In this document: positions 16,392 to 59,159 of the stretch, piece after piece
Numbering within the stretch: the first letter of the stretch is position 1
How the letters are laid out: each line of letters starts with the position of its first letter
DNA from: Corallococcus sp. AS-1-6
GTDB lineage: Bacteria; Myxococcota; Myxococcia; Myxococcales; Myxococcaceae
Reading direction: 5' to 3'
Assembly: GCF_020037015.1 (NCBI RefSeq)
Contig: NZ_JAIQDE010000025.1
Location: 62,001 to 126,000, forward strand
DNA: 64,000 nucleotides
Notes under the pieces: generated by a model
Database searches by the model: none
Told to the model about the DNA's origin: nothing
Seen by the model: only the letters and a program-made list of their open reading frames with translations
Made by a program: the position numbers and the translations under genes

Positions 16392-19535
<3,144 letters not shown>

Positions 19536-57551: not shown

Positions 57552-59159
57552 ATGACGGCTGACTCCGCCACCATCGTCGCCCTGGCCACCGCGCCCGCCG
57601 CGGGGGCGGTGGGCATCCTCCGGGTGTCCGGGCCGGCCGCGCTGGAGGTGGGGCGGAGGCTCGCGCCGGGTGTCCCCGCGTCTCCCACGCCGCGCCATGC
57701 GTACCTGGCGTCGTTCGTGGACGCCGGGGGCGCGGTGCTGGACGAGGGGCTGTTCCTCTACTTCCAGGCGCCCCGGTCCTTCACCGGCGAGGACGTGGTG
57801 GAGCTCCAGGCGCATGGCAGCCCGCGCCTCTTGCGGCTGCTGCTGGCGCGGGCGCTGGAGGACGAGCGGGTGCGGCCGGCGCTTCCCGGCGAGTTCACCC
57901 GGCGCGCGTTCCTGAATGGCCGCATCGACCTGACCCGCGCGGAGGCGGTCGCGGACCTGGTGGCCGCGGATTCGGAGGCCGCCGTGCGCGCCGCCGCGGC
58001 CGGGCTGTCCGGCGCGCTGGCCGAGCGGATCCGCGCGCTGGAGACGCCGCTGCGCGAGCTGCACGCGGACCTGGAGGGCGTCCTCAACTTCCCCGACGAG
58101 GCGGAGGGCGCGGACGCGGAGGCCGGGCCTCGTGTCACCGCGCTGCGCTTCGCCGCGGAGGCGCTGCGCGCGGAGGTGGGCCGTGGCCGGCTGGTGCGCC
58201 AGGGCGCGCGCGTGGCGCTGTACGGGCCGGTGAACGCGGGCAAGTCCACGCTGTTCAACCGGCTGGTGGGCGAGGCCCGCGCGCTGGTGGATGACGAGCC
58301 CGGCACGACCCGCGACGCGCTGGAGGCCCGCGTCGAGTGGGACGGCCTGGGCGTCACCCTCTACGACACCGCCGGCCTGCGAGAGGCGCCCGGCCGCGTG
58401 GAGGCCCTGGGCATCGCGCGCACGCGGGAGCTGCTCGCGGCCGTGGACCTGGCGGTGCTGGTGCTGCCGCCGGGGACTTCGCGCGAAGAGGCCACGTCGT
58501 GGACGCGCGAGGCCGGCGCCACGCCCGTGCTCGTCGTCACCGGCAAGTGCGACGTGACGCCGGAGGCTCGTGAGGAACGGGGTTCGTCCCAGGACAGCGC
58601 GGGCGCGGACCGTTTCGTGTCCACGCCTTCTGAAGATGCGGTGCTCGGGACGAGGCACGCGCCGGGCGTCCTGGATGGCGGAGCGGTGGCGGTGCCCATC
58701 CGCGACGCCCAGGACAGCGCGGGAGCGGACCGTTTCGTGTCCACGCCTTCTGACGATGCGGCGCGCGGGACACGGCGGGCGCCGGGCGTCCTGGACGGCG
58801 GCGCGGCGGCGGTGCCCACCCGCGACGTGGCGTCCGCGGACCTCCCCTCCCCTGCTCCGGCGCGCGTCAGCGGCCTCACGGGCGAAGGCGTGGAGGCGCT
58901 CCGGACCTCCATGCTCACGCGGCTGTGGGGCGGTGGCACTCCCTCCGCGGTGGCGCTCGTCTCCGAGCGTCACGCGGACGCCCTGCGTCGCACCGCCGAG
59001 GCGCTGGGCCGCGCCGAAGCGGCGTCACGCGTGTCCACCCTGGAGGTCCTCTCCGGTGAGGTGGGGCTCGCCCTGGAAGCCCTGGGCGAAGTGTCCGGAA
59101 CGAGCGTCTCCGAAGCACTCCTGGACACCCTCTTCCAGCGCTTCTGCATCGGGAAATAG
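57552..59159 (+). CDS. mnmE: tRNA uridine-5-carboxymethylaminomethyl modification GTPase MnmE
   Basis: A 535-residue protein, about 80 longer than usual. The N-terminal domain has TIVALATAPAAGAVGILRVSG, FTGEDVVELQAHGSPRLL and LPGEFTRRAFLNGRIDL. The G domain has GPVNAGKSTLFN (G1), DEPGTTRD (G2) and LYDTAGLRE (G3). G4 reads TGKCD rather than NKxD, and SGLTGEGV (G5) follows an insertion of two 40-residue repeats. The C-terminal FCIGK holds the Cys needed for modification. With MnmG it modifies wobble uridines. parA/parB do not follow, unlike many relatives. Confidence 0.95.
   Translation: MTADSATIVALATAPAAGAVGILRVSGPAALEVGRRLAPGVPASPTPRHAYLASFVDAGGAVLDEGLFLYFQAPRSFTGEDVVELQAHGSPRLLRLLLARALEDERVRPALPGEFTRRAFLNGRIDLTRAEAVADLVAADSEAAVRAAAAGLSGALAERIRALETPLRELHADLEGVLNFPDEAEGADAEAGPRVTALRFAAEALRAEVGRGRLVRQGARVALYGPVNAGKSTLFNRLVGEARALVDDEPGTTRDALEARVEWDGLGVTLYDTAGLREAPGRVEALGIARTRELLAAVDLAVLVLPPGTSREEATSWTREAGATPVLVVTGKCDVTPEAREERGSSQDSAGADRFVSTPSEDAVLGTRHAPGVLDGGAVAVPIRDAQDSAGADRFVSTPSDDAARGTRRAPGVLDGGAAAVPTRDVASADLPSPAPARVSGLTGEGVEALRTSMLTRLWGGGTPSAVALVSERHADALRRTAEALGRAEAASRVSTLEVLSGEVGLALEALGEVSGTSVSEALLDTLFQRFCIGK
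58590..58829 (+). repeat. Two 120-bp direct repeats within mnmE
   Basis: Two adjacent 120-nt units (58590-58709 and 58710-58829) encode related 40-residue segments. The first begins QDSAGADRFVSTPSEDAVLG and continues through APGVLDGG; the second differs at about eight positions. They lie between the G4 and G5 motifs of the GTPase domain and keep the frame. The duplication looks fairly recent because the DNA is still highly similar. I see no further copy in the window. Confidence 0.9.

Follow-up and report, generated by a model that had tools for sequence, protein, structure and literature searches.

How does the GTPase domain of MnmE come to hold two tandem copies of a 120-nt sequence next to the motifs that contact the guanine base? 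MnmE is a tRNA-modification enzyme present in most bacteria, and a GTPase domain is usually regarded as nearly fixed between the G motifs. The question is raised by the mnmE gene of the soil bacterium Corallococcus sp. AS-1-6, which lies in a 64,000-nt stretch of DNA (hereafter, the window). The initial annotation of the window described the repeats and offered a mobile in-frame element or a regulatory loop as their explanation; it also suggested aligning MnmE from relatives, searching the genome for the unit and predicting the structure.

A tandem array between G4 and G5

In the open reading frame, the domains TrmE_N, MnmE_helical and MMR_HSR1 (50S-type GTPase) each score above the Pfam cut-off, and the protein product scores 256.5 bits against TIGR00450 (cut-off 252.6). 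Against NF003661 it scores 353.7 bits (cut-off 380), and the best-matching stretch extends only to residue 345, the point at which the inserted units start. TRF identified an array at 58588–58827 with a period of 120, 2.0 copies, 90% match, and a score of 396; of the 29 TRF rows for the window, only a 6.5-copy array at 18212 scores higher. Together with a repeat search, this analysis confirms the in-frame pair of repeats between G4 and G5 that had been placed at 58590–58829, which is the same array moved to codon boundaries (58590 is CAG, codon 347). The two units lie head to tail and in frame, they are identical at 108 of 120 sites with 12 spread-out differences, and they make up most of the G4–G5 stretch (Table 1).

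Table 1. Features of the mnmE gene in the window.
Feature	Position	Strand	Details
mnmE (trmE)	57552–59159	+	535 aa, with stop codon
G1/P-loop GPVNAGKS	58224–58247	+	Sequence; Asn, Lys, and Ser invariant in 86/86 family members
Altered G4 GKCD (NKxD expected)	58542–58553	+	Sequence; TGKCD spans 58539–58553
Hypervariable G4–G5 loop	58554–58865	+	104 aa in the window genome
Tandem unit 1	58588–58707	+	120 nt, 40 codons long; TRF and repeat search
Tandem unit 2	58708–58827	+	120 nt, 90% identity to unit 1
G5 segment VSGLTGEG	58866–58889	+	SG where SA is usual
C-terminal FCIGK with catalytic Cys	59142–59156	+	Invariant column C532, Cys in 86/86

The window protein resembles known MnmE/TrmE proteins in its Pfam domains, P-loop (the Asn of which we take to be a potassium-binding residue), TTRD, DTAG, G4 Lys and Asp, and FCIGK. 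Compared with the proteins of known structure from E. coli, Thermotoga, Nostoc, and Chlorobium, it has Gly for Asn in G4 and Gly for Ala in G5. Its predicted-disordered G4–G5 loop of 104 aa also exceeds the 11–27 aa found for this segment in 66 other bacteria (73 loci, of which 7 were skipped by the motif pattern).

Loop length across the family

We searched 96 genomes of the family (Myxococcaceae), 89 of which gave an MnmE match; 87 sequences were aligned and 86 were placed in a tree. The sequences from G094 and G021, which are cut by contig ends, were left out of the alignment, and that of G030, which is in two pieces, was also kept out of the tree. In the 87 aligned proteins, insertions of more than two residues (counted between columns that are ≥90% occupied) were found in the G4–G5 loop only, where they measure up to 213 residues and come in 42 distinct lengths. 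Within genera g1 and g19 (42 sequences), there was no insertion at any other site of MnmE. Core deletions were limited to 6 of the 86 tree members, which lack more than two neighbouring core columns, the longest run being 10. The G4–G5 connection is probably the one place in the family's MnmE where length is free.

Loop length in the tree set ranges from 8 to 222 aa (median 15), and 34 of the 86 members carry loops of more than 25 residues. Insertions at this position had been expected to be rarely tolerated; in this family, long ones are common. Fitch parsimony on the core tree requires at least 17 changes between long and short loops, whereas shuffled labels gave a mean of 27, indicating some phylogenetic signal in loop length. 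Among the members having a neighbour with >95% core identity, loop length differed from that of the nearest neighbour in 32 of 43 comparisons, which overlap and are not 43 independent pairs. A literature search by title and abstract, with subscription journals mostly outside its scope, identified no paper on this pattern in the MnmE loop.

Guanine-contacting motifs

The reading of G4 as non-canonical holds: the window protein has GKCD where the canonical test expects NKxD, and an alteration at this motif is common to the whole family. At the first position of G4, the 86 family members have Gly (72), Ser (9), Ala (3), or Thr (2), and none has Asn; all 72 members with Gly also have SG, not SA, in G5. 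In the 66 other bacteria, this position is Asn in 62, Thr in 2, and Ser in 2, with no case of G4 Gly or of G5 SG. In other Myxococcota (n = 41), we found 18 Asn, 12 Ser, 9 Thr, and 2 Gly, with SG accompanying one of the two Gly cases. Because no family MnmE retains G4 Asn, the G4 change is older than the window insertion and was not caused by it. G4 Asn has been replaced across the family, by Gly in most members, and G5 Ala has likewise given way to Gly in most. The best reading of these sequences is that the guanine pocket of the family's MnmE is remodelled at both guanine-contacting motifs.

We treat NKxD as typical rather than defining, because Asn is absent from 4 of the 66 other bacteria and from 23 of the 41 other Myxococcota, and because the portion of PMC11594714 used here reports that 43.3% of 298 guanine-binding complexes lack NKxD. 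That percentage suggests that loss of the motif need not abolish guanine binding. Other key positions are conserved: in addition to the P-loop and C-terminal residues in Table 1, all four residues of TTRD, the Asp and Gly of DTAG, and the G4 Asp are invariant in 86 of 86 members, G4 Lys occurs in 85, and Glu follows DTAGLR in 72. A catalytic role for the C-terminal Cys of MnmE is given in the part of PMC12397908 consulted.

Constraint, composition, and predicted structure

The core of mnmE is under strong purifying selection, with dN/dS of 0.07–0.17 between the window gene and 11 Corallococcus relatives (13 were tried, L016 and L020 were dropped because of an extraction mismatch, and G021 and G030 were not included). 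Between unit 1 and unit 2, dN is 0.08 and dS is 0.19; the ratio of 0.43, obtained from 12 changes, appears compatible with weak constraint or none. In long loops, GC content hardly varies over the three codon positions (0.76/0.67/0.76), whereas cores have a coding-like profile (0.80/0.53/0.88); GC3 is lower than in the core of the same gene for 33 of 34 long loops. Hydrophobic residues make up 17.5% of long loops, intermediate between the 19.9% and 13.9% of the two unused frames. Long loops contain 0 stops, compared with 38 and 54 in the unused frames, as expected for any coding stretch, and 0.1% Cys, compared with 3.4 and 4.8%. Protein-level selection on the loop is not wholly absent, and we read the long loops as DNA that was probably gained recently and codes under weak constraint.

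AlphaFold2, run with 42 sequences, produced a model with a mean pLDDT of 82.4 that drops below 50 over residues 350–432, so that the loop is predicted to be disordered. The best fold match of the model was the MnmE structure 9hip_A (E 8e-32, TM 0.70 by query, rmsd 10.1 Å over the whole chain), and the G domain of the model aligns with 2gj8_A at 1.9 Å. The enzyme presumably still works as an MnmE. According to the cryo-EM description in the consulted part of PMC12397908, MnmG contacts MnmE at the helical domain and the swivel helix and not at the G4–G5 segment; the loop may therefore be free of partners.

From these observations, we consider it likely that the insertion represents the present condition of a loop that changes fast, is probably disordered and near-neutral, and tolerates differences in length, in an otherwise conserved MnmE with a remodelled guanine pocket. 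The loop is probably tolerated filler.

An adaptive regulatory role for the loop, in which its length would tune guanine-nucleotide exchange or G-domain closure and different lineages would select different lengths, seems unlikely to us. Its position between two guanine-contacting motifs, the phylogenetic signal in length, and the avoidance of Cys would suit such a role, as would the frequency of G4 Gly among long loops (33 of 34, vs 39 of 52 short loops), a link between related sequences that is only suggestive. Against it, the loops of different genera are unrelated by eye, loops of 8–12 residues serve many family members, and the MnmG contacts lie elsewhere. The initial annotation had proposed a regulatory loop of this kind, and the length turnover among members with >95% core identity, the low GC3, and the disordered model offer it no positive support.

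A more specific proposal starts from the finding that every family member with G4 Gly also has G5 Gly. The two glycines could form a rebuilt guanine clamp that holds the base less tightly and so frees the loop, whose length of 8–222 residues would then act as a rheostat on nucleotide exchange, possibly with relaxed nucleotide specificity. We regard this proposal as quite improbable.

Insertions in Der and other linkers

As a control, we fetched 70 Der loci (the 30 best-scoring and 40 from other genera), of which 64 were read and 6 were missed by the pattern. The 30 best matches (23 from g19, 6 from g1, and 1 from g9) showed no internal length change. Across the 64 loci read, insertions of up to 59 and 14 residues occur in the linker joining the two G domains of Der. 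The G4–G5 stretches of Der vary by at most 7 residues (the maximum lies in the second domain, following G4); elsewhere insertions do not exceed 3 residues, and deletions reach 7. Because the Der linker also gains long in-frame insertions, what sets MnmE apart is where such growth occurs and not growth itself. The long insertions of MnmE sit between two nucleotide-binding motifs, whereas those of Der sit in an inter-domain linker.

In some genera the Der linker has gained as many as 59 residues (loci L311–L350), and by eye it is rich in Glu and Ala. The Der match of G018 (C1:5349088-5350227) is shorter than those of its relatives and contains one in-frame TGA, either a sequencing error or real. 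In the window, the array at 18212–18561, within an open reading frame at 16392–19535 (+), consists of 6.5 copies of a 48-nt (16-residue) unit and occupies a long Pro/Ser/Arg-rich inter-domain linker of a protein that we named by eye as Ser/Thr-kinase-like. Growth of the MnmE loop resembles growth of disordered linkers in that the window's kinase-like linker also has in-frame tandem units and the Der linker also shows large differences in length; it differs in that those linkers join domains, whereas the MnmE loop lies inside a catalytic domain.

MnmE and MnmG across the order

In a survey of 145 genomes of the order, MnmE (PF12631) was found in 96 and MnmG (TIGR00136) was found in 96, with 91 of the MnmG matches above cut-off. 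When the two sets of matches are crossed, both proteins occur in 94 genomes and neither occurs in 47, single-contig G127 included; MnmE occurs alone in 2 (G080 and G090), and MnmG occurs alone in 2 (G013 and G191). The counts for both and neither indicate that some parts of the order lost the two proteins jointly. High G+C content was considered as a cause of this loss and rejected, as 8–20 kb samples from 15 genomes showed no clean split (63–76% GC in genomes lacking the pair vs 60–72% in genomes keeping it).

The joint absence of MnmE and MnmG from these 47 genomes, along with a guanine pocket altered throughout the family, might suggest that mnmE is decaying in this order and that the G4 change and the insertions are early signs of loss. 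We hold this to be very unlikely in view of the low dN/dS of the core, the lack of stops within MnmE among the matches listed, the invariance of key residues, and an mnmG frame that is intact in the window genome (L292, contig C17 of G000, 132400–134900). The MnmE/MnmG pair is kept and constrained in the lineage of the window.

In TIGR00136 coordinates, MnmG alignments from the family are interrupted between roughly positions 480 and 506, and the match from the window genome falls 19 residues short of the one from G193, which belongs to another family of the order. The part of PMC12397908 consulted places MnmE contacts on MnmG at residues 516–517 in the E. coli numbering.

Origin of the 120-nt unit

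A search of the unit against its own genome placed the full array at mnmE only; the other matches span 18–73 nt at E ≤ 10, and no dispersed copy was found among the 40 candidates scored out of 353. We also searched 16 genomes of the genus: of the 15 other than that of the window, 5 had a match at E ≤ 1e-4, of 41–68 nt, and the match in G028 is the mnmE loop itself. These short matches in five genomes are above chance if GC bias is ignored, and they are GC-rich by eye. Plasmids and phages yielded no match to the unit.

At the protein level, the fetched loci from other genomes contain a single match to the unit peptide, a degenerate copy in the mnmE loop of G028, a Corallococcus relative. That loop consists of a few residues, then DSPRAGAGADRFALSPSDDAGASPIRDAASAALPSPAPP, which is one shortened relative of the unit, and then a tail nearly as in the window. 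In G018, the closest relative by core (97.5%), the loop measures 20 residues, and in G029 it measures 18. We infer that the loop of this lineage already contained the unit as a native segment, of which G028 still has a single degenerate copy, and that one duplication in the window species produced the pair.

Searches of the own genome, the 16 genus genomes, plasmids, phages, and the fetched loci left, apart from mnmE itself, only short matches of 18–73 nt, and a mobile origin was rejected for the 120-nt unit. The reading of the unit as a mobile in-frame element, one of the two proposals in the initial annotation, is largely refuted by its single genomic place and by the results above, and we consider it extremely improbable; what stands of the proposal is that a dispersed repeat does occupy the same site, in frame, in genus g3. 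The exact array is known from a single draft assembly, but the suggestion that the second unit is an assembly artefact is a weak worry with next to no probability, as a simple assembly duplication would yield identical copies and these differ at 12 of 120 scattered sites, and as the single-contig genomes G062, G069, and G060 also carry long loops (71, 117, and 147 residues).

A dispersed repeat in genus g3

In five of six g3 genomes, the loop translates as PHPDPLPEGEGIDSGST...L(T/S)PSLSR.(E/A)RG; G004 has PHPGP. The underlying repeat (L142:880-985, ~105 nt) contains two 9-bp hairpins, with CCCTCTCCC stems and GGGAGAGGG-like partners, and its fold z-score of −1.94 lends the hairpins modest support. 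Of 13 genomes searched, with up to 40 candidates scored in each, 8 contain at least 40 matches each, and G000, G018, G070, G012, and G033 contain none. Copies are present in G006, none of them in mnmE, and the loop of G080 has part of the repeat. Two other copies that we inspected (L181 and L183) are seemingly between genes; around them we recognised, by eye, ileS, coaBC, and a uracil-DNA glycosylase gene.

According to the consulted part of a review (PMC10969869), Rickettsia palindromic elements (RPEs) often lie in frame inside genes. By its sequence, the g3 loop DNA appears RPE-like in being dispersed, hairpin-forming, and open in frame in mnmE, and the likeness to what the consulted part of that review (PMC10969869) describes extends to the tolerance of in-frame repeat DNA within a housekeeping protein. 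There are two differences: the window unit occurs at one place only and looks like a local tandem duplication, and RPEs hit many genes, whereas the present analysis concerns a single loop in a single gene.

Growth and proposed loss of loop DNA

We scanned with TRF the 77 loops that a motif pattern cut out, 35 of them long, and found arrays in 16. Arrays with a period of ≥15 nt and a score of ≥50 occur in 12 of the 77, every one a long loop, and their periods (15, 18, 21, 24, 39, 60, 63, 75, 78, 84, 108, and 120 nt) are all multiples of three; 23 of the 35 long loops have no array of this kind.

The tandem repeats are many and mutually unrelated, and some copy the G4 or G5 segment. In G069, 60 nt ending in G4 align over their full length with 60 nt of the loop, and a decayed second copy of G4, MVDGEHDV, stands beside MVDGKCDV; the loop of G060 has a similar copy of the G4 segment. 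In G053, VSGLTAAG stands before the true G5 as its decayed copy, and G062 has 20-residue units with G5-like ends (RVSG..EGG). All four genomes retain an intact first G4 and an intact last G5. When flanks were compared with loops, 4 of 68 tests reached p ≤ 0.01, one of them (G027) at the threshold, vs 0.68 expected by chance.

We propose that loop DNA is gained repeatedly by in-frame tandem duplication, which at times would include the G4 or G5 segment, and that in one genus it was gained through the dispersed two-hairpin repeat. Where a motif is copied, the outermost copy would stay intact and the inner copy would decay. Replication slippage or unequal recombination would presumably produce the duplications, and loop DNA would be lost again by in-frame deletion, the likely route by which loops shorten.

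Implications

The unusual feature of this locus is wider than a single insertion: the G4–G5 connection is the sole site of long insertions and is reused, in a family in which both guanine motifs have been replaced. Tandem duplication and a dispersed repeat appear to exploit the same permissive site in MnmE. The family also constitutes a natural experiment, in which one enzyme with a core >95% identical among many neighbours carries 42 loop lengths beside the nucleotide pocket, accompanied by a coupled change of both guanine-contacting motifs. It lets one ask how much of a G4–G5 connection such a GTPase needs.
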